From positions 372,001-436,000 of the forward strand of contig NZ_JBEPOO010000001.1 of the NCBI RefSeq assembly GCF_040546815.1: 64,000 bases of DNA. Reading direction: 5' to 3'. Made by a program: the position numbers and the translations under genes. Shown here one piece after another: positions 2 through 20,784 of the stretch (within the stretch, counting starts at the first letter, position 1; each line of letters starts with the position of its first letter). The notes beneath the pieces are model-generated. The model was not told the origin of the DNA, did not search any database, and saw only the letters and a program-made list of their open reading frames with translations. The stretch comes from Devosia sp. 2618 (lineage in GTDB: Bacteria > Pseudomonadota > Alphaproteobacteria > Rhizobiales > Devosiaceae).

Positions 2-241
2 GGCCTGAAGCGCGGCGAGATCCTGGTCGCTCGGCACACCGATCCCGGCTGGATCGCCATTTTCAGCAATGCGGCGGCTATCGTCGTCGAGCGCGGGAGC
101 CTGTTGTCGCACTCAGCCATCGTGGCGCGCGAACTGGGCATTCCCTGCGTTGTCGGCATCAAGGGCGCGATGGACTGGATCGAGGATGGCGAAATGATCG
201 AGGTCGATGGTGCCACAGGTGAGGTGAGGCGGCTGGCATGA
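2..241 (+). CDS. PEP-utilising enzyme, C-terminal phosphohistidine (swivelling) domain, partial
   Basis: Only the last 79 residues are in the window; the gene starts upstream. The fragment has the hallmark of the PEP-utilising mobile domain: a Ser-His motif (SLLSHSAIVARELGIP, His at fragment residue 37) followed by a Gly-rich strand and a closing IEVDGATGEV segment, as in PEP synthase, pyruvate phosphate dikinase and rifampin phosphotransferase-type enzymes. The His normally carries the phosphate between an ATP-grasp domain and a second active site; those domains are not visible, so the substrate is unknown. Its TGA overlaps the ATG of the next gene by four bases, so it is very probably translationally coupled to the DUF3419 gene. 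It could be a true PEP synthase or an antibiotic- or alcohol-phosphorylating relative. Confidence 0.8.
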   Translation, partial: GLKRGEILVARHTDPGWIAIFSNAAAIVVERGSLLSHSAIVARELGIPCVVGIKGAMDWIEDGEMIEVDGATGEVRRLA

Positions 242-1335
242 CGCAAGCCGATATTGCCGGTCGGGCGCGGTTTGACGCCATACGTTATGCCCAGCTTTGG
301 GAAGATGCCGACGTGCTGGTGGCCGCGCTCGATACCGCGCCGGGCGCAACGCTGGTGTCGATTGCCTCGGCCGGGGACAATGCGTTGGCCATGTTGCTGC
401 TCGACCCAAAACGGGTCGTGGCGATTGACCTGTCACCGGCGCAGATCGCGTGCCTGTCGATCCGCATGGCCGGCTATCGGACGCTCGACCATGGTGGATT
501 CATCGATCTGATGGGCTCGCGGCAGTCGGCTCGGCGGGGCGAACTGTTCGATGCCATCGTCAGGCAGGTCAGCGCCGAGGATCAGGCATTCTGGGCCAGC
601 CGGCGGGACGACGTTATCCGCTATGGGCTGGGTGGGGTCGGCAAGTTCGAGAACTATTTCCGGCTGTTCCGGCGCTATATCCTGCCGCTGGCGCAGAGCC
701 GGTCGACCATCGAAGAAGTATTTGTCGCCAAGCCAAGGGCTGAGCGGGCGGCGTTCTTTGACCGGCGCTGGAACAACTGGCGCTGGCGGCTGGCGCTCAA
801 GGTGTTTTTCTCCAATCTCGTGATGGGCCGTCTGGGGCGCGATCCGGCGTTTTTCGATCATGTCGAGGGCAGCCTGTCGGATCATGTTGCCCGCCAATTG
901 CGCCATGCCGGTGTCGATCTCGACCCGGCCGAAAACCCCTATCTGCACTGGATATTGAAGGGCAATCACGGCGCGGCGCTGCCGCTGGCCTGGCGGGCCG
1001 AGCATTTTGCCACCATTCGCGACCGGCTGGACCGGCTCGACCTGCGCTGCGGCGCGCTCGAAGCATTCGTCGCGACGGGGGAGAAGGCGGACGGCTTCAA
1101 TCTGTCGGACATTTTCGAATACATGGACGATGGTGTCTTCGCCTCGGTTTACAGTTCAATCCTTGACGCTGCGCGGCCCGGCGCGCGGCTGGTTTATTGG
1201 AACATGATGGTGCCGCGGCGCGTGCCGACGGCGTTGGCTGCGCGGGTCGAGCAGCTTGAGGCGGTTGAGGTCGAGGGCAAGGCAGCGGACAAGGCGTTCT
1301 TTTACTCGGACTTCGTGGTGGAGCAGGTCCGGTGA
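238..1335 (+). CDS. DUF3419 family protein, BtaA-like 3-amino-3-carboxypropyl transferase
   Basis: A 365-residue protein of the DUF3419 family, whose characterised member BtaA transfers the 3-amino-3-carboxypropyl group of S-adenosylmethionine to diacylglycerol, the first step of betaine-lipid (DGTS) synthesis. Visible signatures are RYAQLWEDADVL near residues 16-27, a SAM-binding-like segment ASAGDNAL at 43-50, AIDLSPAQI at 62-70, GKFENYFRLF near the middle, NPYLHWILKG, FNLSDIFEYM and a C-terminal LVYWNMMVPRR. It is somewhat shorter than bacterial BtaA (roughly 400 residues). No BtaB methyltransferase is adjacent, so the product may not be DGTS. It overlaps both neighbours by four bases (ATGA and GTGA junctions), placing it in a coupled operon. 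The family call is secure; the substrate is inferred. Confidence 0.85.
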   Translation: MTQADIAGRARFDAIRYAQLWEDADVLVAALDTAPGATLVSIASAGDNALAMLLLDPKRVVAIDLSPAQIACLSIRMAGYRTLDHGGFIDLMGSRQSARRGELFDAIVRQVSAEDQAFWASRRDDVIRYGLGGVGKFENYFRLFRRYILPLAQSRSTIEEVFVAKPRAERAAFFDRRWNNWRWRLALKVFFSNLVMGRLGRDPAFFDHVEGSLSDHVARQLRHAGVDLDPAENPYLHWILKGNHGAALPLAWRAEHFATIRDRLDRLDLRCGALEAFVATGEKADGFNLSDIFEYMDDGVFASVYSSILDAARPGARLVYWNMMVPRRVPTALAARVEQLEAVEVEGKAADKAFFYSDFVVEQVR

Positions 1336-2633
1336 GCTTCACGCTGGCCGATGGTTTCAAGGTTGCGCTTATTCTGGCGGCAATCCCATTGGTCATGCTG
1401 GCGGTGGGACGGCTCGGCAAGCGGTTCGGCTGGGACGCCGAGGTCAACCGCAAGCTGGTGCATGTTGCGACCGGTTGCCTCGCGCTGACCTTCCCGCTGC
1501 TGTTTTCCAATCCGCTGCCGGTGCTGATCCTGCTGGCCATCGCGATACTCTTCATGTTCGTCATCCGCAGCGGGCTGTTGGGCGGGCTGGGTAGTGCCCT
1601 GCACGGGGTCGAGCGGCAGTCCTATGGCGAAATCTACCTCGCGCTGGCGATTGCAGTCACCTTCATCCGGGCCGAAGAACACCCGATGCTCTATGTGCTG
1701 CCCATTCTCGTCATCACGCTGTCGGACACGGCAGCGGCGCTGGTGGGCACGGTTTACGGCCGTCGACGCTTTCCCGTTGAAGGCGGCGCCAAGAGCATCG
1801 AGGGTGTCGTCGTCTTCTTCATCGTGACATGGCTCGCCAGCCTCATCGTCCTGGTGCTGATGACCAGCGCCGCGCCGCTCAACCTCGTGTTGATTTCGAT
1901 GTTGATCGCGGCGTTCTGTGCGTTGGTAGAAGTGGATTCCTGGCGCGGGCTGGATAACCTCTTTGTGCCCGTGGGAGCCTTTCTGCTGCTCAGCAGTCAC
2001 CTTGATAGCAGCCCGCTGGACCTGGTATTCAGCACCGGCGTGTTTCTGGCATTTCTGGTCGTCCTGCTGTTGCTTGCGCCCACCCTCAAGCTCAGCGAAC
2101 AGGCCGCGCGCGCCAATGCGATCCTGCTGTTTTTGATCATCTCCATCGTCTCGCTGCACAATGTGATCCTGCCCACGCTGACGATCGTGGCCTATCTCGC
2201 CGCGCGCACGCTGCGCCCCTGCGACAGCAAGCGGCCCGACTATGACCTGCTGTTTGTCGCCGCCATGGTGTCGCTGCTGTGGCTGTTTGTCGGCGACGCG
2301 GGCGGCCGCTCTGTGATCAGCCTGTTCAACCTTACCTTTGCCGGCGCTCTGGTTGGCTTTCTGGCTGTGGCCATGCACAAGTATTGGCGCGTGCTGATCC
2401 TGCCTGCCATGGCCGCAGCCGGATGGGTGGCGTGGTGGGCGGCGCAGGCCAATATGCCCTATTCGCGCTGGTTCATGCCCAGTGTCCTCGAAATTGCCGC
2501 AGCGCTGATCGTCGTCGTAGTCCTGCCGCTGTTGCGACCAGAATGGTTCGCGTCACGGCGCAGCCTGCGCATTTTTGGGCTGGCGATGATCGTGCCATCG
2601 ATCCTGTTCCTGCGAGGAGTTGTGCTGCAATGA
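1332..2633 (+). CDS. Membrane CTP-dependent lipid kinase-like protein (DGK1/SEC59/VTE5 family)
   Basis: A 433-residue polytopic membrane protein starting at GTG 1332. The N-terminal half carries motifs of the dolichol kinase/diacylglycerol kinase/phytol kinase family, often annotated as phosphatidate cytidylyltransferase: NRKLVHVATG at residues 39-48, SDTAAALVGTVYG at 131-143 and GGAKSIEGV at 151-159. Family members use CTP to phosphorylate a lipid alcohol at the membrane. The protein is about twice the length of the minimal family fold: beyond residue 200 there is a further set of hydrophobic helices with no obvious catalytic motif. Placed between a BtaA-like transferase and an acyltransferase, it could phosphorylate a lipid intermediate. 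The true substrate and nucleotide preference cannot be read from the sequence. Confidence 0.8.
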   Translation: MSFTLADGFKVALILAAIPLVMLAVGRLGKRFGWDAEVNRKLVHVATGCLALTFPLLFSNPLPVLILLAIAILFMFVIRSGLLGGLGSALHGVERQSYGEIYLALAIAVTFIRAEEHPMLYVLPILVITLSDTAAALVGTVYGRRRFPVEGGAKSIEGVVVFFIVTWLASLIVLVLMTSAAPLNLVLISMLIAAFCALVEVDSWRGLDNLFVPVGAFLLLSSHLDSSPLDLVFSTGVFLAFLVVLLLLAPTLKLSEQAARANAILLFLIISIVSLHNVILPTLTIVAYLAARTLRPCDSKRPDYDLLFVAAMVSLLWLFVGDAGGRSVISLFNLTFAGALVGFLAVAMHKYWRVLILPAMAAAGWVAWWAAQANMPYSRWFMPSVLEIAAALIVVVVLPLLRPEWFASRRSLRIFGLAMIVPSILFLRGVVLQ

Positions 2634-3469
2634 CCGAAATCCAGACCCTGACCCGTTCCGGCGCTGCCCTTCGCATCTATCGCGATGCGCCGGAGTGGGA
2701 CGGGCTGCCGAGCGCAGCCATCGGCGGCCTGGCGTTTGAGGATGCGAACGCTACGGCGGCATTGCTCGATGAGGCGATCACCTTGCTGCGTAGCGAGCGC
2801 TTCGGGGGTGTCATCGGTCCGATGGACGGCGATACTTGGCACAGCTACCGCGTGGTGACCGAGAGCGATGGCTCGGCGCCGTTCGCGCTCGAACCACGCA
2901 GCGGCGCGCATGACCACGCGGTATTGGCTGGCGCCGGCTTTGCGCCGATCTCGAACTATGTGTCATCGCGCGCGCGGCTGGTGGATACGCTGGGCGAGGT
3001 GCCGGTCAGCATTGAAGGCGTGACGGTCTCAGCGTGGGATGGGACAGGGGCGGAGGGGCTGATCAGCAAGCTTTTTGCCATGTCGGGCTCGGCCTTTGCC
3101 GGCAATCACTTTTACAAGCCGATTACGCTCGACGCATTTCTCGACCTCTATCGGCCCATCCTGCCCATGCTCGATCCGCGCCACGTGCTGTTCGCGCATG
3201 GCCCGAATGAGCAACTGGTGGGCTTCCTGTTCGGCTTCCCGGATCGGTTGGCGACGGAAAAACCTGCTGCCGTGCTCAAGACCTATGCCAGTGGCTTACG
3301 CGGGGTGGGGCATTTGCTAGCCGATCAGTATCACCGCCGCGCGTTGGAGATGGGCCACGAAGAGGTCATCCACGCGCTTATGCACGAAAGCAATGTTTCC
3401 AACGAGCGCAGCCAGCGGCACAAGGCGACGGTGTTTCGCCGCTATGCCCTGATGGGGCTCCGGCTCTAG
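2630..3469 (+). CDS. GNAT family N-acyltransferase-like protein
   Basis: A 279-residue protein; ATG 2630 overlaps the preceding TGA and has GAGGAG just upstream. The C-terminal third looks like a GNAT acyl-CoA-binding fold: a strand reading VLFAHGPNEQLVGFLFGFP, a helix-rich segment, then VIHALMHESNVSNERSQ, which resembles the acceptor-side end of GNAT domains where an Asn-containing helix follows the last strand. The N-terminal half has no motif I recognise. GNAT proteins transfer acyl groups from CoA or ACP to amines; bacterial ceramide synthase is one example acting in lipid synthesis. With an adenylate-forming ligase immediately downstream, an N- or O-acylation of the product of the BtaA-like enzyme is a reasonable hypothesis, not a demonstrated role. 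Confidence 0.65.
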   Translation: MTEIQTLTRSGAALRIYRDAPEWDGLPSAAIGGLAFEDANATAALLDEAITLLRSERFGGVIGPMDGDTWHSYRVVTESDGSAPFALEPRSGAHDHAVLAGAGFAPISNYVSSRARLVDTLGEVPVSIEGVTVSAWDGTGAEGLISKLFAMSGSAFAGNHFYKPITLDAFLDLYRPILPMLDPRHVLFAHGPNEQLVGFLFGFPDRLATEKPAAVLKTYASGLRGVGHLLADQYHRRALEMGHEEVIHALMHESNVSNERSQRHKATVFRRYALMGLRL

Positions 3470-3472
3470 ACC

Positions 3473-4888
3473 ATGAACCTTATCGCCACCTCCATCGAGA
3501 CGGCGAGCAAGCGTGGCGGGCACACGGCCATCGTCGCGGGCTATGGGAGGTCGATCAGTTTTGCCGATCTGGCCCGGCGGTCGGGCGCGCTGGCGGAAGG
3601 CTGGCGGCGGCGTGGCGTAAAGGCGGGCGATCGGGTGATCCTCGCCATGCCAGTCGGCATCGACCTTTACGCCGCGATTGCGGGGCTGTGGCGCCTCGGC
3701 GCGACCATCGTCTTTCCCGAGCCCGCATTGGGGCTCGCAGGTCTGCGCCATGCCGTGCGGATGACACGGCCGCGTGCGTTGCTGACATCAGGCGCCTACG
3801 GAATGTTGCGGTTCGCCGTGCCCGAATTGTGGGGCGTCGGGCTGCATCTGCACCTCGATGACAGCGCAGCGAGCGATGCACTTGCGTACGTCACGCCCGA
3901 TCATGCCGCCCTGATCTCCTTCACCAGCGGTTCGACCGGCAAGCCCAAGGCTATCGTGCGCAGCCACGGCTTTCTGGCTGCACAGGATGCGGCGCTCGAT
4001 GCGCTGATTGCGCCGCAGCGTGACGATGAAGTGGATCTGGTGGCATTTCCGGTCTTCGTCATCGCCAATCTGGCGAGGGGTACGACGTCGGTGCTGCCGA
4101 ACTGGAAATTGCGCGATCCGGACAGCGCCGATGCCGCTGGTATCTTGCGGCTGATCAAAAGCCAGAAGATCACGCGCGCGCTAGCGCCGCCATCCATCGG
4201 CGAGGTCTTGGCAAAAGCTGATGCGGTGCCGTTGCAGACGCTATTCACCGGTGGCGGCCCGGTATTCCCCGATCTGATCGAACGGCTGCAGCGGCTCATG
4301 CCGGCACAGTCCGATATCGTCTCGGTCTATGGCTCGACCGAAGCGGAGCCGATTGCCTGGCAAAGTGCGCGCGCGATTTCAGACAGCCAGTGGCAGGCCA
4401 TGAAATCCGGTATGGGGCTGCTGGCTGGCAAGCCCATCGCCGCGATCGGGCTTAAGCTGCTTGATGACGAGATCGTCGTGACAGGCGACCACGTCAACAA
4501 AGGTTACCTCGGCGGGCAGGGGGATGCAGAGAACAAGCTGAACCTCCATGGCACCATCTGGCACCGCACCGGTGATGCTGGGCGTATCGATACTGACGGC
4601 GCCCTGTGGCTGTGCGGTCGGCTCAGTGGCCGGTGTGGCACGCTCTACCCATTCGAGGTCGAAGCGCCATCGCGGTTCTGGCCGGGCGTTCGGCGGTCGG
4701 CTTTGGTGGCTATCGACGACAAGCCCGTCCTTGCCCTGGAAGGCGATGACGCGCATCTGGCGCAATGGCAGAAGGCTGCGGCTGATATTGGCGTCGAGCG
4801 GGTCGTGTCGATTGCGAGGATGCCTATGGACCGTCGGCATCACTCCAAGGTGGATTACAACGCGCTCAAAAACACGCTGGTGCGATAG
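3473..4888 (+). CDS. AMP-dependent acyl ligase/synthetase (ANL superfamily)
   Basis: A 471-residue adenylate-forming enzyme, expected to activate a carboxylic acid as acyl-AMP and pass it to CoA or another acceptor. Motifs: P-loop TSGSTGKPKA at residues 151-160, YGSTEAEP (A5) near 283, the WHRTGDAG segment with the ribose-binding Asp (A7), CGRLSG (A8), and a C-terminal RRHHSKVDY region whose Lys459 is in the position of the catalytic lysine. It is somewhat shorter than usual for acyl-CoA synthetases (500-560 residues) and, with its HHSK ending, is reminiscent of OleC-like fatty acyl-AMP ligases. It starts three bases after the GNAT stop and is the last gene of the operon; the next gene is convergent. 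Substrate unknown, fatty acid likely. Confidence 0.8.
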   Translation: MNLIATSIETASKRGGHTAIVAGYGRSISFADLARRSGALAEGWRRRGVKAGDRVILAMPVGIDLYAAIAGLWRLGATIVFPEPALGLAGLRHAVRMTRPRALLTSGAYGMLRFAVPELWGVGLHLHLDDSAASDALAYVTPDHAALISFTSGSTGKPKAIVRSHGFLAAQDAALDALIAPQRDDEVDLVAFPVFVIANLARGTTSVLPNWKLRDPDSADAAGILRLIKSQKITRALAPPSIGEVLAKADAVPLQTLFTGGGPVFPDLIERLQRLMPAQSDIVSVYGSTEAEPIAWQSARAISDSQWQAMKSGMGLLAGKPIAAIGLKLLDDEIVVTGDHVNKGYLGGQGDAENKLNLHGTIWHRTGDAGRIDTDGALWLCGRLSGRCGTLYPFEVEAPSRFWPGVRRSALVAIDDKPVLALEGDDAHLAQWQKAAADIGVERVVSIARMPMDRRHHSKVDYNALKNTLVR

Positions 4889-5295: not shown

Positions 5296-8200
5296 TTAGT
5301 GGCTGGGCGCCGGTTCTGCCGTTTCGGCGTGGTGATGATCCGGCGACTTGGGCAGGAAGCGGCGGGCGAAACGACCCAGCGCTTCGGTATAGGTCAGCAT
5401 GACCGGCACCACGACCAGTGTCAGCAACGTCGAACTGATCAGTCCGCCGATCACCGCGTGGGCCATCGGGGCGTTCTGGCCACTGCCTTCGTGCAGGGCC
5501 AGTGCCAGCGGCAGCATGCCGAAGATCATAGCGAGCGTAGTCATGATGATCGGGCGGAAGCGGGTTTCGCCCGCTTCGATCAGGGCATCAATCAGCGATG
5601 AGCCGGCGCGAACATGCTGGTTGGCGTTGTCGACGAGCAGGATGGCGTTTTTCACCACCAGACCCATCAGCATGACGAAGCCGATCATGGAATACATGTT
5701 CAGCGTCGAACCGCCGACCAATAGGCCCAGCATCACGCCGATCAGCGATAGCGGCAGGGCCGACATGATGGCGAGCGGCTGCAGGAAGCTGCCGAACTGG
5801 CTGGCGAGCACCAGATAGATGAAGATGATCGCCAACAGGAGCGCCGAGCCGACGCTGCCCATGGTGTCGGCCAGCATTTCGGTGTCGCCGCCTTCAGACA
5901 GGACGATGCCGGGCGGCAGGTCGAGCGCCGCGACGGCCGCCTGCACATCGGCACTGACGTCGCCGAGGATGCGGCCTTCGACATTGGCCGAGACGCTGAC
6001 CTGACGGGTCAGGTTCTCGCGGTTGATCTCGCTGGGGCCAACCGTTGGGCGGACTTCAGCGACCTGATCAAGCGTGATGGCCAGTGGCGTGGCGCTGGAG
6101 CGGTTCTGCGCGATGGGTAGGCTGCCCACGGCGTCCACATCCTGGCGCATGGCCTCGGGCAGGCGAACGACCACGTCGAGACGGTCATTGCGGTCGTCGG
6201 TCCATTCCGATGCCGTTTCGCCGCCCAGCATGGCACGCAGCGCCGAGCCGGTGGCCGCGATGCCGACGCCGAGGTCGCTCGCAGCCTGTCGGTCGAGGAT
6301 GATGTCGAGCATGGGCTGGGCCTGTTGCAGGCTGACCTGCACATCGACCGCGCCATCAATGTCGCGCATCTTGTCGGCGAGAGCATTGGCGGCGGTTGCC
6401 AGATCCTCGAGGTTTTCGCCCATCAACTTGACCTGGATGGGGCTGCCGCCACCAAGGCCGCCACCGGCCGAGACTTTGAAATCGGCACCCGGAATGGTCA
6501 ACAGCGCTTCGCGGATCGGTGCGGTCATTTGCTGGGACGACAAAGCGCGCGAGGCCGGGCCCACCAGCGACACGGTGATGGTGGCGCGGTTTTCGCCAGC
6601 CGAGCGACCGGCATTGACGGTGGTATAGGTGCTCGAGACTTCCGGCATGGCGCGGAGCAGCGCTTCGGCCTGATGGGCCTTGATGGCAGTATAGTCGATG
6701 GACGAGCCGGGGCGCGTTTCGATGCTGACCTGGATTTCGCTCTGGTCGGTGGCCGGCATGAACTCGGCGCCGATCATGGGGAACAGCAGGAAGCTACCAA
6801 AGAACGACATCATGGCAACGACCATGGTGATGATGCGGTGGCGCAGCGACCACTTGAGGACCTTGGTATAGCCCTTGGCCAGCTTTTCAAAGCCACGCTC
6901 GAACAGGGCAATGGTGCGGCCTATCGGGCCGCGCTTTGCATTGGGCTCCGATGCCGGATCATACCAGACACTCGACAGCATCGGGTCGAGGGTGAAGCTG
7001 ACAAACAGCGAGATCAGCACGGCGACCGAAACGGTAACGCCGAACTGCATGAAGAACTGGCCGATAATGCCATCCATGAAGGCCAGCGGCATGAACACTG
7101 CGACGATGGAGAGCGTCGTTGCCAGCACGGCAAAGCCGATTTCCTTGGTGCCATCGAGCGCCGCCTGGAAGTGCGATTTCCCCATATGCAAATGGCGCGT
7201 GATGTTTTCGCGCACCACGATGGCGTCGTCGATCAGGATGCCGACCGACAGGGTCAGCGCCAGCATGGTCATGGTGTTGAGCGTGAAGCCGAGCATGCTG
7301 ACCACGGTCAGTGTGCCGATGATCGAGATCGGTAGCGTCAGGCCGGTTATGATGGTCGAGCGCCACGAATTGAGGAACACAAACACGATGACGACGGCGA
7401 GAATGGCGCCTTCGATCAGCGTTGCCTGCACGACTTCAAAATTGTTCTCGATGGGTTCGGCGCTGTTCTGCAAAATGTCGATGGTGACGCCGTCAGGCAG
7501 GTTGCCGCCGGAGTTGAGGCGATCAATGGCCTTTTCGATGGAATGGGCGATGCCCACGGTATTGCCGCCCTGGATCTTGACGATGTCGATGGCGAGCGCC
7601 TGCTGGCCATCGCGGAAAGCGAGGCCCTGCGTGTCGGAGGGGCCGAGCGTAATGGTGGCGACGTCTCCCAGTTTGATGGTCTCGGCGCCGTGGACGGCAA
7701 CGATGACGTCACGAAAACCCTCGAGCGAGGTAACTTCGGTATTGAGCTGAATGGTCTGCACCAGCATGCCGTTGATGACGGTGCCGGTGGGCATGGTGCG
7801 ATTGTCCTGCTGCAGCGCCGAGATCACGTCGCTGACGCCGATGCCATAGGCATTGAGCAAGGCGGGGTCGATGGCGACGTCAACCTGCTGGTCGAGACCT
7901 CCAACCACAGTGGCGCTACCGACGCCGGAAATGGCGGTGAGGGCAGGCGAAACGATGTCGTCGGCTACGCGCGTGAGGTCGACCACCGAATGGGTGGAGC
8001 TGCTCAGTGCCAGCGACATCATCGGCGACGATGTCGGATCAAAGCGCAGCACCTGTGGAGTGTCGGCGCTGGAAGGGAGCGAGCTGGCAATGGCGGCGAG
8101 ACGGTCGCGCACGTCCTGCGCGGCCGTCGAAGAATTGGTTTCCAGCGTGAACATCAGGATGACGGTCGAGTGACCGGCGCTCGAGGTCGAGGTGACGGAG

Positions 8201-8433
8201 TCTATGCCGCTCAGCGTGTTGACAGCTTCTTCGATGGGGCGGGTGATTTCGGATTCGACGGCCTCGGGCGAAGCGCCGGTATAGGGCGTCAGCACGGCGA
8301 CAACGGGGAAGTCGACGTCGGGATATTGTTCGATGGGCAGGCTCTGGTAGGCGCTGATGCCAAAGACCATGATCGCCACCATGATCATGGTAGCGAAAAC
8401 CGGATGGCGAACGCTGATGTCTGTCAAAAACAT
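5296..8433 (-). CDS. RND family (HAE1) multidrug efflux inner-membrane transporter
   Basis: A 1045-residue AcrB/MexB-type proton-driven pump, the usual family length. The two halves each have a leading transmembrane helix, a large periplasmic porter loop and a bundle of helices. The proton-relay aspartate pair is present in GILIDDAIVV and the relay lysine in VVKNAILLVDN. It exports hydrophobic drugs or detergents from the periplasm and outer leaflet. It is the second gene of an operon: ATG three bases after the stop of the adaptor gene, with a strong terminator downstream. No TolC gene is linked, so an outer-membrane partner must be encoded elsewhere (the TolC at 14668 belongs to another exporter but could serve). 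The divergent two-component system is the likely regulator. Confidence 0.95.
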   Translation of the reverse strand: MFLTDISVRHPVFATMIMVAIMVFGISAYQSLPIEQYPDVDFPVVAVLTPYTGASPEAVESEITRPIEEAVNTLSGIDSVTSTSSAGHSTVILMFTLETNSSTAAQDVRDRLAAIASSLPSSADTPQVLRFDPTSSPMMSLALSSSTHSVVDLTRVADDIVSPALTAISGVGSATVVGGLDQQVDVAIDPALLNAYGIGVSDVISALQQDNRTMPTGTVINGMLVQTIQLNTEVTSLEGFRDVIVAVHGAETIKLGDVATITLGPSDTQGLAFRDGQQALAIDIVKIQGGNTVGIAHSIEKAIDRLNSGGNLPDGVTIDILQNSAEPIENNFEVVQATLIEGAILAVVIVFVFLNSWRSTIITGLTLPISIIGTLTVVSMLGFTLNTMTMLALTLSVGILIDDAIVVRENITRHLHMGKSHFQAALDGTKEIGFAVLATTLSIVAVFMPLAFMDGIIGQFFMQFGVTVSVAVLISLFVSFTLDPMLSSVWYDPASEPNAKRGPIGRTIALFERGFEKLAKGYTKVLKWSLRHRIITMVVAMMSFFGSFLLFPMIGAEFMPATDQSEIQVSIETRPGSSIDYTAIKAHQAEALLRAMPEVSSTYTTVNAGRSAGENRATITVSLVGPASRALSSQQMTAPIREALLTIPGADFKVSAGGGLGGGSPIQVKLMGENLEDLATAANALADKMRDIDGAVDVQVSLQQAQPMLDIILDRQAASDLGVGIAATGSALRAMLGGETASEWTDDRNDRLDVVVRLPEAMRQDVDAVGSLPIAQNRSSATPLAITLDQVAEVRPTVGPSEINRENLTRQVSVSANVEGRILGDVSADVQAAVAALDLPPGIVLSEGGDTEMLADTMGSVGSALLLAIIFIYLVLASQFGSFLQPLAIMSALPLSLIGVMLGLLVGGSTLNMYSMIGFVMLMGLVVKNAILLVDNANQHVRAGSSLIDALIEAGETRFRPIIMTTLAMIFGMLPLALALHEGSGQNAPMAHAVIGGLISSTLLTLVVVPVMLTYTEALGRFARRFLPKSPDHHHAETAEPAPSH

Positions 8434-8436
8434 GGT

Positions 8437-9606
8437 TTAGTTCGCCTCGATGATGACGGATGCGCCATCGCGCAGGCCCGACAGCTTGGTGGCGACGATG
8501 GTGTCGCCGGCCGCCAGCCCTGTGCGGGCTTCGAGCATGCTGCCGCCTTCCCAGCCGGAGCCGACTTCGATGGCGCGTTCGCGCACCACGCCGTCCACCA
8601 CGGCCATGACAAAGCGCTCATCATCGCGGCTCTGCACGGCGGCGGTTGGCACGGCCAGCACGTCGTTGGCCTGCTGCACGACGATTTCGCCGGTGACGAA
8701 CATGCCGCCGCGCAGCTTGCCCTCGGCATTGTCGAGCGTGAGGTGAACCTTGATCGAGCGCGTGCCGGCTTCAGCGACTGGGCTGATGCGGTCGACCACG
8801 CCCGAGAACAGGGTGTTGGGCATGCCGGGGACGGTGAGGTTTACTGCCTGGCCGGGCTGCACCTTGCCGATGCTGCTCAGCCCGACAATGACTTCGACAC
8901 GCACCGAGGAAAGATCGACCAGCGACAGCATGGTGGTGCCGGGATTGACGATCTGGCCGGGTTCGATGCTGCGGGCCGAAACCGTGCCGGCGAACGGCGC
9001 GGCGACGCGGGCGCGGCGCAGATTGGTCTCGGCGAGCGTGACCTGCGTCTGCTGCGAGGTGATGGTGGCGGTCAGCCGATCAACCTCGGCGCGCGCATTG
9101 TCGAGCGCGGTCTGGGCGGAAAGGCCCTTGTCGGCCAGCAGTTGCGTGCGGTCGAGCAGAGCCTGTGCGGCCTGCAACTGCACCATGGTCGTCGCCATGG
9201 TGGCGCGCTGCTGGTCGAGCTGCAGCTGCAGATCGGTGGTGCCGACTTCGACCAGTAGATCGCCGGCGGCGACATGATCGCCTGGGCGGACCGCGACGGT
9301 TTCCGCAAGGCCAGAAACCTGTGACGCAATCGCAGCTTCCTGCAATGGATAGATGGTGCCGCTCACCCGGACATATTCCTGGATCTGGCGTGGCTCGACC
9401 AGAACGATCTCGACGGGATGCAGCCGCATGGCGCGCTCGACGGTAGGGGTCGATACCGTGGCAGCCAGCGGCGCGGATGGTGTTTCATTGCTGAGAAACA
9501 CCAGGCCAAGACCGACCAGAACGGCCAGACTAGCGGCGGACCAGAACCAGGCTTTCTTGCCGGACTTGGTGGGGATGCTCTCGATTTTGTCTGTAGCGTT
9601 ATCCAA
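8437..9606 (-). CDS. RND efflux periplasmic adaptor (membrane fusion protein)
   Basis: A 389-residue HlyD/AcrA-type adaptor linking the RND pump to an outer-membrane channel. It has an N-terminal membrane anchor (AWFWSAASLAVLVGLGLVF, about residues 19-37), a lipoyl/biotinyl half-motif pair (VSGLAETVAVRPGDHVAAGD and the later RVAAPFAGTVSARSIEPG), a helical hairpin between them and a beta-barrel region. The start is TTG at 9606 with GAGGT about seven bases upstream. No lipobox Cys is present, so it is membrane-anchored by the helix rather than by a lipid. First gene of the pump operon, divergent from the response regulator across about 150 bases. Confidence 0.92.
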   Translation of the reverse strand: MDNATDKIESIPTKSGKKAWFWSAASLAVLVGLGLVFLSNETPSAPLAATVSTPTVERAMRLHPVEIVLVEPRQIQEYVRVSGTIYPLQEAAIASQVSGLAETVAVRPGDHVAAGDLLVEVGTTDLQLQLDQQRATMATTMVQLQAAQALLDRTQLLADKGLSAQTALDNARAEVDRLTATITSQQTQVTLAETNLRRARVAAPFAGTVSARSIEPGQIVNPGTTMLSLVDLSSVRVEVIVGLSSIGKVQPGQAVNLTVPGMPNTLFSGVVDRISPVAEAGTRSIKVHLTLDNAEGKLRGGMFVTGEIVVQQANDVLAVPTAAVQSRDDERFVMAVVDGVVRERAIEVGSGWEGGSMLEARTGLAAGDTIVATKLSGLRDGASVIIEAN

Positions 9607-18612: not shown

Positions 18613-18780
18613 GTATCCAACCTCCCAGTTGCCCCCAAGGTTAAATCCGGGTCGCAGGCAATGGACAAGGCAATTTATGTGTCCTATAGGCCTGCCGATC
18701 ACCGATTTGGTGACGCGCCATTGTGGACGACCGCAATGCAGGTTCATATCTTCAGGGGACGACCCCTAGAGGTTTGAACC

Positions 18781-19950
18781 GTGTCCACCCAAACTGTTGC
18801 CAAGACATCTTTGTCTCGACATCTTCCCTTCTCGACCATCATCAAGCTGATCGTCGCCTGGGGCGTTGTCGTTGCCTTTTTCATAGGCGGCCCATCCTGG
18901 CTGCACGATCCGATTGACCCCGTCATCGCCGTCATCTGCTTTGTCGTGATTTTCGGCACCATCATGGTCGCCGCTTTCGGCGTGGTGCATGAGGCCGACT
19001 ATCTGGCCCATCAACTGGGCGAGCCTTATGGCACGCTGATCCTGACGCTCGCCATTGTCTCCATCGAGGTGATCCTGATCGCGGCGGTGCTGCTTGGTCC
19101 CGGCGAGAACGCCACCATTGGCCGTGACTCGATCTTTGCGGTGATGATGATCATCCTCAATCTGGTCATGGGCATTTGTCTCATTGTCGGCGGCCGCCGG
19201 TTTGGCGAGCAGGAATACAATTCCCAGGGCACCATTGCCTATGTCGCGATGACGCTGGTACTGGCCGGCATCGGTCTGATCCTGCCAAACACGTTGAGCA
19301 CTGGCGACGGCACATTCTGGCCGGTACAGGCCGTGGCGTTTTCCATCCTGACCCTTGTGCTCTATGGCGCGTTCCTCTTGATGCAGACGCGCGGCTATCG
19401 TCGCTTTTTCGTGCAACCTGAATTGGGCTCACTGTCGATCCCGATCATCACGCGTGAAGTGGAAGTTACGGCCGAGCCGAAGACCCCGGTCGACAAGGCC
19501 GGCGTCATCATCCACTCCGTCCTGCTGGTCGCGCTGATGCTGCCCATCGTTCTGTTGGCGCACGATCTGGCGCTGGTTGTCGACTTTGGGATTTCGTCGG
19601 TCGGCGCACCGATTGCTCTGAGTGGCGTCATCATCGCGTTCATCGTCTTTACGCCAGAATCCATGACCGCCGTTCGGGCGGCCTTGGACAACCAGCTGCA
19701 GCGCTCGATCAACCTCTGCCTCGGCGCTTTCGTGTCGACGGTTGGCCTGACCATCCCGGCGGTGCTGATTGTTGGCCTCGTCACCGGCAAGACCGTCGTC
19801 ATGGGCGTCTCGCCGACCGAAACCGTCATGCTGTTGCTGACAGTGGGGCTCACCGCGCTGACCTTTATGGGGCAACGCGCCTCGGCTTTGCAGGGCACGT
19901 TGCACCTGACGCTGTTTGCGGTGTTTGGCGTGCTGTTGTTCGCCACCTGA
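18781..19950 (+). CDS. chaA: Calcium/sodium:proton antiporter ChaA
   Basis: A 389-residue cation antiporter of the CaCA superfamily with two homologous halves of membrane helices. The alpha-1 repeat shows VVHEADYLAHQLGEPYGTLILT and SIEVILIAAVLLGP, the alpha-2 repeat FTPESMTAVRAALDNQLQRSINLCLG, matching ChaA in which acidic residues in these repeats bind the cation. It exports Ca2+ or Na+/K+ in exchange for protons. GTG 18781 with GAGG upstream. A small hairpin AGGGG-ACGA-CCCCT (18754-18767) lies just before the ribosome binding site. Confidence 0.9.
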   Translation: MSTQTVAKTSLSRHLPFSTIIKLIVAWGVVVAFFIGGPSWLHDPIDPVIAVICFVVIFGTIMVAAFGVVHEADYLAHQLGEPYGTLILTLAIVSIEVILIAAVLLGPGENATIGRDSIFAVMMIILNLVMGICLIVGGRRFGEQEYNSQGTIAYVAMTLVLAGIGLILPNTLSTGDGTFWPVQAVAFSILTLVLYGAFLLMQTRGYRRFFVQPELGSLSIPIITREVEVTAEPKTPVDKAGVIIHSVLLVALMLPIVLLAHDLALVVDFGISSVGAPIALSGVIIAFIVFTPESMTAVRAALDNQLQRSINLCLGAFVSTVGLTIPAVLIVGLVTGKTVVMGVSPTETVMLLLTVGLTALTFMGQRASALQGTLHLTLFAVFGVLLFAT

Positions 19951-19962
19951 ATTATTGACGCC

Positions 19963-19986
19963 CGCTGGCAGGACGACCTGCCAGCG
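19963..19986 (+). terminator. Hairpin after chaA, probable terminator or processing site
   Basis: Perfect ten-base stem CGCTGGCAGG/CCTGCCAGCG with ACGA loop, 12 bases after the chaA stop. No T-run follows, so intrinsic termination is uncertain; it could be a stabilising 3' end or part of the atpB leader. Confidence 0.5.
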
Positions 19987-20031
19987 TTACGGGCCTTCCG
20001 AGGACGACCTCCAAACGCTTGAGGTCCTTCC

Positions 20032-20784
20032 ATGGCCAATGATCCGATTCACCAGTTTGTGGTGGAGCCCATCTTTCCGCTGCCGCCGCTCGCGGGCCAA
20101 GACGTCAGCTTCACCAATGCGTCCGCCTATATGATGTTGACCGTGGTGATCGCGGGTGGCTTCTTCGTACTGGCAGGGCGGAAGCAGGCGCTGGTGCCGG
20201 GCCGCATGCAGATGGTCGCGGAAATGCTCTATCAGGCCATCGAGAACCTCGTCATCTCCACCATAGGCCGTGAGGGGATGCGGTTTTTTCCGCTGGTCTT
20301 CTCGCTGTTCAGCTTCATCCTCGTCGCCAACTTGATCGGCATGTTCCCCTATGCCTTTACGGTCACGGCGCAGATCATCGTCACTGCCGCCTTTGCCCTG
20401 TTCGTGTTCGCGGTGGTCACCGTCTATGGCCTCTATCGGCACGGCTTTAAGTTCTTCAAGCTGTTCATGCCGAGCGGACTGCCGGGCTATCTGGCGCCCG
20501 TCATCATCCCTATCGAGATCATTTCCTATATCTCGCGACCGATCAGCCATTCGGTGCGCCTGTTTGCGGTCATGCTGGCCGGGCACATCACGCTCAAAGT
20601 GTTCGCCGGCTTCGTCGTCGACCTCAGCGCCTTGGGTCCATTGGGCATTGTCGCCTCGGTCGCGCCGCTGGCGATGGCGGTGGGCATCACGGCGCTGGAG
20701 CTCGTCATGTCGATCATCCAGGCCTATGTCTTTGCCATGCTGACCTGCATGTATCTCAACGACGCGATGCATCCCTCGCATTAG
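20032..20784 (+). CDS. atpB: ATP synthase subunit a (F0) paralogue, solitary
   Basis: A 250-residue F0 subunit a with five or six membrane helices. The half-channel helix reads [22 protein letters not shown]; essential Arg176 (E. coli Arg210) and Gln230 in [10 protein letters not shown] (E. coli Gln252) are present, but the residue four after the Arg, normally Asn (E. coli Asn214), is Val180. GAGG precedes ATG 20032. Other F0 genes (atpI, atpE, atpF) that normally accompany atpB in Alphaproteobacteria are absent; neighbours are chaA and motA. It is either a relocated sole copy or a divergent duplicate. It should sit in the inner membrane and form the proton path with the c-ring if functional. 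Confidence 0.85.

Follow-up and report, generated by a model that had tools for sequence, protein, structure and literature searches.

What is made by the operon at the start of this stretch of Devosia sp. 2618? The stretch, 64,000 nucleotides long (contig C1, 372001-436000; hereafter the window), opens with five joined genes at 2..4888, which the original prediction read as a five-gene operon of lipid-type enzymes distinct from the diacylglyceryl-trimethylhomoserine (DGTS) pathway. That the operon is real and is not the DGTS pathway is borne out. Its extent is not, as it has seven core genes and the window edge cuts off an HMG-CoA reductase (HMGR)-like gene, a UbiA-like gene and most of the third gene. 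The full order is HMGR-like, UbiA-like, phosphoenolpyruvate (PEP)-synthase-like, DUF3419, CdsA/DGK1-like membrane protein, tandem GNAT and OleC-like ligase. On balance, we judge it rather probable that the operon, found whole or not at all, would make a single specialised amino lipid, or lipid-like metabolite, with an isoprenoid part. Its prenyl, aminocarboxypropyl and reductase elements are suggested, at the level of sequence, by conserved residues, phylogeny and co-conservation. The HMGR-like reductase and the prenyltransferase add the reductive and isoprenoid elements to the scheme originally predicted. Catalytic-type residues are conserved in the HMGR-, phosphohistidine- and ligase-type enzymes, as is the first metal motif in the UbiA type.

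Layout of the operon

The 3' part of the operon occupies five reading frames on the + strand of the window, exactly where they had been predicted, with three 4-base overlaps (238-241, 1332-1335, 2630-2633) and one 3-base gap (3470-3472). Coordinate 2 is a mere window edge, inside gene 3; the operon starts about 4.4 kb further upstream, in the stretch denoted L002, where coaBC precedes it (TIGR00521, 370.6 bits against a cut-off of 219.7). Two more 4-base overlaps lie upstream of the window, between the HMGR-like and UbiA-like genes and between the UbiA-like gene and gene 3. The features are as follows.

Gene 1: ends at L002 15847, start at about 14.6 kb of L002 (not fixed), + strand, HMG-CoA-reductase-like gene
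Gene 2: L002 15844-16788, upstream of the window, + strand, UbiA-type gene, joined by 4-base overlaps
Gene 3, entire: about contig 369785-372241, running on upstream of the window, + strand, about 818 residues, stop at window 241
Gene 3, C-terminal end: 2..241, + strand, PEP-synthase-like phosphohistidine enzyme (Pfam PEP-utilizers, E 4.7e-28)
Gene 4: 238..1335, + strand, DUF3419 protein, probable S-adenosylmethionine (SAM)-dependent 3-amino-3-carboxypropyl transferase of a clade apart from the BtaA type
Gene 5: 1332..2633, + strand, membrane protein of 433 residues with a possible CdsA/DGK1-like core at about residues 23-225, tentatively a CTP-dependent lipid-alcohol kinase
Gene 6: 2630..3469, + strand, tandem GNAT-fold acyl-CoA transferase, 279 residues
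Gene 7: 3473..4888, + strand, PRK09274/OleC-like adenylate-forming ligase, 471 residues

Conservation and distribution

Relatives of the operon were collected through its DUF3419 protein. A protein search returned at least 7023 relatives at E <= 0.001 among the 7998 candidates scored. A contig scan, with an alignment of 12 close DUF3419 relatives as query and the peptide patterns SDIFEYM and LVYWNMM, returned at least 586 stretches, of which at least 509 encode a relative. Most of these 509 are probably of the cluster type, judging from sequence, since the SDIFEYM and LVYWNMM sites carry other residues in the BtaA type. The best 80 form our locus set.

All seven genes are matched (tblastn, E <= 1e-5, certain matches at contig ends being short) in one order and on one strand in 73 of the 80 loci. 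The remaining seven end at contig ends, and no violation of order or strand was found among the 80. Conservation of the genes together, the check named in the original prediction, is what the loci display, beyond what chance would give. At four of the six junctions the sequences allow a 4-base overlap in 55/74, 46/76, 68/80 and 63/78 loci; such an overlap is scarcer at the PEP-synthase-like/DUF3419 (23/80) and GNAT/ligase (19/78) junctions. Carriers include Devosia, to which the nearest relatives of the window's DUF3419 protein belong, Rhizobium, Bosea, Chelativorans, Dongia, Hyphomicrobium, Paracoccus, Ruegeria, Roseovarius, Sulfitobacter and Yoonia, together with one metagenome-assembled genome (MAG) of Sphingomonadales and two Halomonas. 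Roseovarius nubinhibens ISM and Ruegeria halocynthiae are among them.

The operon is present or absent as a unit. A sample of 149 genomes, drawn evenly from the family of Ruegeria halocynthiae, was searched for DUF3419, UbiA and HMGR only. Cluster-type DUF3419 was found in 12 and UbiA in 11, all within the 12; the twelfth DUF3419 copy sits on a contig of 3999 bases. HMGR matches (E <= 1e-15) occur in 13, namely the 11 genomes with both other genes plus two more. Seven of the 12 copies were already in the 80-locus set; of the five added (G776, G779, G792, G910, G913), four carry all seven in the usual order, and the fifth locus is truncated. An apparent gene fusion in G910 (an 824-residue open frame) was ruled out, as separate frames are present for both genes. 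The operon HMGR-like gene at G792:C49:177191-178456 and G779:C1:2551290-2552557 has an internal stop in one case and lies in two frames in the other, which reflects either decay or sequencing error. Because the unit stays together in Devosia, Rhizobium, Bosea, Dongia, Hyphomicrobium, roseobacters, Paracoccus and Halomonas, its conservation implies a single product worth keeping.

Beyond that family, a close DUF3419 protein was found in one of 398 Pseudomonadota genomes, the window's own, with nine others matching at 27-33% identity. The operon UbiA was likewise found in one of 385 Alphaproteobacteria genomes, again the window's own. A copy in Roseinatronobacter lies on a plasmid, spanning the start of the record. 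This patchiness (12/149 within the family, 1/385 class-wide) and the plasmid copy would both suit a non-membrane natural product, that is, a small compound, secreted or used for signalling, that draws on both isoprenoid and amino-acid sources, in place of a structural lipid. We regard this as a possible, if doubtful, alternative. A UbiA-type protein, another polytopic membrane protein and a relative of BtaA together suggest membrane-embedded substrates instead, and the seven genes include no exporter or regulator.

The HMGR-like protein and isoprenoid supply

Gene 1 matches Pfam HMG-CoA_red (E 9.1e-105) and scores 318.2 bits on TIGR00533, for which the cut-off is 441.8. Residues were counted in orthologs from the 80 loci, those below 60-70% coverage being excluded (kept: HMGR 71, UbiA 73, gene 3 75, DUF3419 80, gene 5 78, GNAT 77, ligase 76). 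Glu129, Lys260, Asp334 and His424 are invariant in 72/72 HMGR rows. We take these to be the catalytic positions, and Ser684 and Lys735 in human numbering to be the residues that hold HMG. At the first of the latter sites Glu253 replaces Ser684 in 72/72 rows; the column of Lys735 is never Lys in 72/72, holding Val, Ile or Met, or an invariant Ala304 under other gap placement. By eye, the archaeal, plant and human HMGRs in the alignment retain Ser and Lys at both sites.

Genome content was surveyed in 25 carriers (the window's genome plus 24 of the 80 loci). HMG-CoA synthase was found in none of them, while control genomes were positive in 7/14, six over the cut-off. IspF is present in 25/25 and DXR in 20/25. 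DXR (PF02670) was not found in the window's genome (G000) or in G744, G746, G752 and G767; since IspF is present in all 25, these five likely use a DXR-like substitute enzyme. The operon protein thus shares with class I HMG-CoA reductase the HMG-CoA_red match and four catalytic residues but differs from it in lacking the HMG-binding Ser and Lys, in carriers lacking HMG-CoA synthase. From its sequence, it is probably not an HMG-CoA reductase. A segment of the mevalonate pathway was rejected on the same grounds: the altered HMG-binding pair, HMG-CoA synthase in 0/25 and IspF in 25/25.

The altered pair is wider than the operon, because a stand-alone HMGR homolog of Vibrio fluvialis, 57% identical over 79% of the query, carries Asp at the Ser684 site and Met at the Lys735 site. 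The operon HMGR shares 54.5-57% identity with homologs in Vibrionaceae (L092 9770-11032; Vibrio and Photobacterium records). Certain genes annotated as bacterial HMG-CoA reductase may, to judge from these residues, have another substrate. An HMGR-like gene on an Alteromonas macleodii plasmid (L093 2280-9041) has in its vicinity genes for a thermostable-haemolysin-family protein, an AMP ligase, a haem-oxygenase-like protein and a short-chain dehydrogenase/reductase. The AMP ligase, about 3.4 kb from the HMGR-like gene, is only distantly related to that of the operon (26% over 306 residues).

A DUF3419 clade beside that of BtaA

The predicted BtaA-like transferase belongs to the family named (DUF3419, PF11899, E 4.2e-59) and falls in a clade separate from BtaA. 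In a tree, 24 cluster rows (of 81) split with 100/100 support from 14 BtaA-type rows, which include no experimentally proven BtaA. The branch between the two clades is very long, about 10 changes per column, and saturated. The two groups have 33 conserved residues in common, and 50 columns are fixed differently, two being gaps. Cluster-type proteins score 175-205 bits on the Pfam model in the 25 carriers, five of which own a second, BtaA-scoring copy at 345-380 bits. Own clade and coexistence with a BtaA-type gene both argue that the operon DUF3419 is not BtaA; by sequence, it is separate from that type. Many DUF3419 relatives carry the name BtaA by similarity. A single-sequence search at E <= 1 found no solved-structure relative, and the titles returned by a literature text search on DUF3419 deal with algae, plant betaine lipids and a smut fungus.

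Partner genes differ too. Directly downstream of the DUF3419 gene, a BtaB-like start is present in 8 of the 14 BtaA-type loci and was not found in the other six. Two of these eight downstream genes were examined and are class I methyltransferases; we take the genes to be BtaB, a name that no family library gave them. With a looser pattern, the BtaB-like start motif was found in none of the 80 cluster loci within the available flanks. The DGTS pathway was therefore rejected for the operon on the separate clade, the absence of the motif from the 80 loci and the BtaA-type paralog in 5/25 carriers. The likeness to BtaA/BtaB lies in a DUF3419 family member with SAM as probable aminocarboxypropyl donor, whereas the operon adds six co-conserved genes of other kinds and can coexist with a BtaA-type gene. 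A homoserine-glycerolipid variant, in which the DUF3419 protein would act on diacylglycerol as BtaA does and its neighbours would modify the head group, could claim the family membership and the 33 shared residues. The same three grounds, with the length of the branch, make it very unlikely.

Prenyltransferase, phosphohistidine enzyme and ligase

Gene 2 matches Pfam UbiA (E 1.7e-12), and its first motif, D76E77xxD80xxxD84, aligns on the NDxxDxxxD of 6m31, a digeranylgeranylglyceryl phosphate synthase. A candidate for the second Asp-rich motif is an invariant NGxVxExGRK, not aligned to a solved second motif. Matches of the operon to archaeal ether-lipid enzymes (digeranylgeranylglyceryl phosphate synthase, CDP-archaeol synthase) are weak and partial, and the seven genes, unlike that pathway, include no glycerol-phosphate prenyltransferase of the geranylgeranylglyceryl-phosphate-synthase type.

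The phosphohistidine-domain enzyme and the adenylate-forming ligase are both as predicted. Whole gene 3 matches PPDK_N (E 1.3e-39) and PEP-utilizers (E 9e-27), its sole Pfam matches at E <= 0.1, and His777 is kept in at least 97% of 76 rows. A true PEP synthase was rejected, as no PEP/pyruvate-binding C-terminal domain was matched. The nearest solved chains, 5fbs and 5hv2 (titled phosphoenolpyruvate synthase), are presumably rifampin phosphotransferases. Like rifampin phosphotransferase and prodigiosin-type ligases, gene 3 has an ATP-binding and a phosphohistidine domain and no other matched; unlike them, its best NCBIfam match is the PRK06241 subgroup, below cut-off (632.7 of 883 bits).

Gene 7 matches AMP-binding (E 3.2e-43), and its TSG loop (151-153) and Lys459 are kept in at least 97% of 77 rows. 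Its top NCBIfam matches are PRK09274 (263.6 bits, cut-off 478) and OleC, a beta-lactone synthetase (149.1 bits, cut-off 900). It stays under both cut-offs, however, and the seven genes lack OleA, OleB and OleD. No operon protein reaches an NCBIfam cut-off among the matches listed (the best 25 for genes 3 and 7).

Membrane and GNAT proteins

Pfam gave no match to the window's gene 5 and gene 6 proteins. For gene 6, the predicted GNAT assignment is made firm by structure comparison, which reveals a tandem GNAT fold; Acetyltransf_1 is matched by 8 of 36 orthologs, and the structural neighbours include mycothiol synthase and a clavulanate-pathway protein.

For gene 5, the predicted DGK1/SEC59-like lipid kinase fares less well. 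No solved-structure relative was found by sequence profile at E <= 1, and Foldseek returned nothing better than E 0.66. VIA-align listed CDP-diacylglycerol synthetase and 5guf as weak matches. Residues K154/E157/G158 and D208/N209/P213 are invariant and resemble the motif type of phytol and dolichol kinases. These motifs and the weak structural match to CDP-diacylglycerol synthetase hint at the kinase label; against it, a CTP-transferase family in Pfam (E <= 1) is matched by 0 of 38 gene 5 orthologs.

The same residues bear on a prenyl-alcohol salvage route. The HMGR-like enzyme would make the alcohol, gene 5 and the phosphohistidine enzyme would add two phosphates and UbiA would use the diphosphate; the DUF3419, GNAT and ligase proteins would prepare the acceptor. 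In plant phytol salvage, VTE5 and VTE6 add phosphates to phytol and VTE2 uses the diphosphate, and the operon resembles this in its kinase-like membrane protein and UbiA prenyltransferase. Such a route would link the roles of two phosphorylating enzymes and UbiA, and would account for the kinase-type residues of gene 5. We nevertheless consider it unlikely, given the absence of CTP-kinase family matches just described and of any quinone or aromatic enzyme among the seven genes; the operon DUF3419, GNAT, ligase and HMGR proteins have no counterpart in the plant pathway.

Flanking P450 and sulfotransferase genes

Neighbours were compared at 72 loci with HMGR and ligase matches, 69 with at least 2.5 kb upstream and 63 downstream. 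For each locus, clustering took in at most five upstream and six downstream frames, called under a greedy longest-frame rule (at least 100 residues) by which genes may be missed; cytochrome P450 types were separated by eye. A pair of P450 and sulfotransferase genes occurs at 13 of the 72 loci, upstream and divergent at 12 and downstream at one (a Cypionkella MAG). The first-type P450 is found without a called sulfotransferase partner at two more, a second type at six (four upstream, two downstream) and a third at one. A Pfam check of four flanking proteins gave three P450s and one Sulfotransfer_3. A functional link to the operon is suggested because the same genes occur on either side, although many of the carriers are close relatives.

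The nearest solved chains to the first-type P450 (one protein) are 7wzl, 3dbg, LUT5, CYP46A1 and CYP175A1, the first two being terpene-type P450s. The second type (one protein) is nearest to CYP51, CYP120 and taxadiene hydroxylase. The best matches thus presumably include terpene-, carotenoid-, sterol- and retinoid-type enzymes, and lean towards an isoprenoid substrate without showing one. Neighbours of this kind also suit the small secreted or signalling compound considered above, as does the proximity of the tandem GNAT to mycothiol synthase and the clavulanate-pathway protein.

A model for the product

We propose that the most likely product is an undescribed prenylated, aminocarboxypropyl-bearing lipid or lipid-like metabolite; both the product and the order of steps are predictions. 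The UbiA protein would prenylate a membrane acceptor, drawing on a prenyl diphosphate supplied by the methylerythritol phosphate pathway, and the DUF3419 protein would place the 3-amino-3-carboxypropyl group of SAM on an acceptor other than that of BtaA. The OleC-like ligase would activate a carboxylate. The HMGR-like enzyme would reduce to the alcohol a thioester of the ligase-activated kind, not HMG-CoA. The GNAT protein may N-acylate the amino group, and gene 5 and the phosphohistidine enzyme may phosphorylate an alcohol. In certain lineages the P450 and sulfotransferase would decorate the product.

A more specific version, which we think distinctly unlikely, would have the operon make an analogue of ceramide-1-phosphate that is isoprenoid and built on homoserinol. 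The route would be independent of sphingolipid synthesis and would use an HMGR-family enzyme acting on an amino-acyl thioester. Here a prenylated alcohol would receive the aminocarboxypropyl group of SAM through the DUF3419 protein, and the ligase would activate the carboxyl of that group. The HMGR-like enzyme would yield the amino alcohol (a homoserinol ether), the GNAT protein would N-acylate it and the kinase would phosphorylate the new hydroxyl. As a speculation, the invariant Glu253 might bind an ammonium group, which would point to a substrate with a positive charge.

Several observations weigh against the broader proposal of an isoprenoid-containing amino lipid. These can be summarised as (i) an HMGR homolog unaccompanied by the operon UbiA or DUF3419 occurs in two of the 149 Ruegeria-family genomes (42% and 37% identity), and leucine breakdown could still supply HMG-CoA; (ii) the DUF3419 protein need not transfer an aminocarboxypropyl group; (iii) UbiA has an unusual second motif and could be devoid of transferase activity; (iv) in VIA-align the CdsA/DGK1-like match of gene 5 ties with unrelated membrane pyrophosphatases, in addition to the 0/38 result above; (v) the majority of the 72 loci showed no P450 or sulfotransferase neighbour, none was seen by eye beside the window's own operon, and the first-type P450 also matches BM3-type fatty-acid hydroxylases, at lower scores.

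Known enzyme families come together here in a combination that fits no pathway known to us. Among the titles listed by literature text searches, whose coverage leaves out most subscription papers, none describes the seven-gene unit. With this operon, an HMG-CoA-reductase-type enzyme would gain a role outside the mevalonate pathway, and DUF3419 one other than that of BtaA; the similarity-based names HMGR and BtaA are probably misleading for the two genes concerned.

Other features of the window

Facing the operon end from the opposite strand is a gene for a resistance-nodulation-division efflux permease (5296-9606, - strand; ACR_tran E 2.3e-268), beside which its membrane-fusion partner was recognised by eye. 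Further along, two Guanidine-II (mini-ykkC) riboswitch matches above the gathering score lie on the + strand at 18719-18767 (39.5 bits) and 19965-20012 (39.9 bits). The first stands just before a ChaA/calcium-proton-exchanger-like gene (18781-19950) and the second just before the gene for ATP synthase subunit a (20032-20784), an odd context for a guanidine riboswitch.

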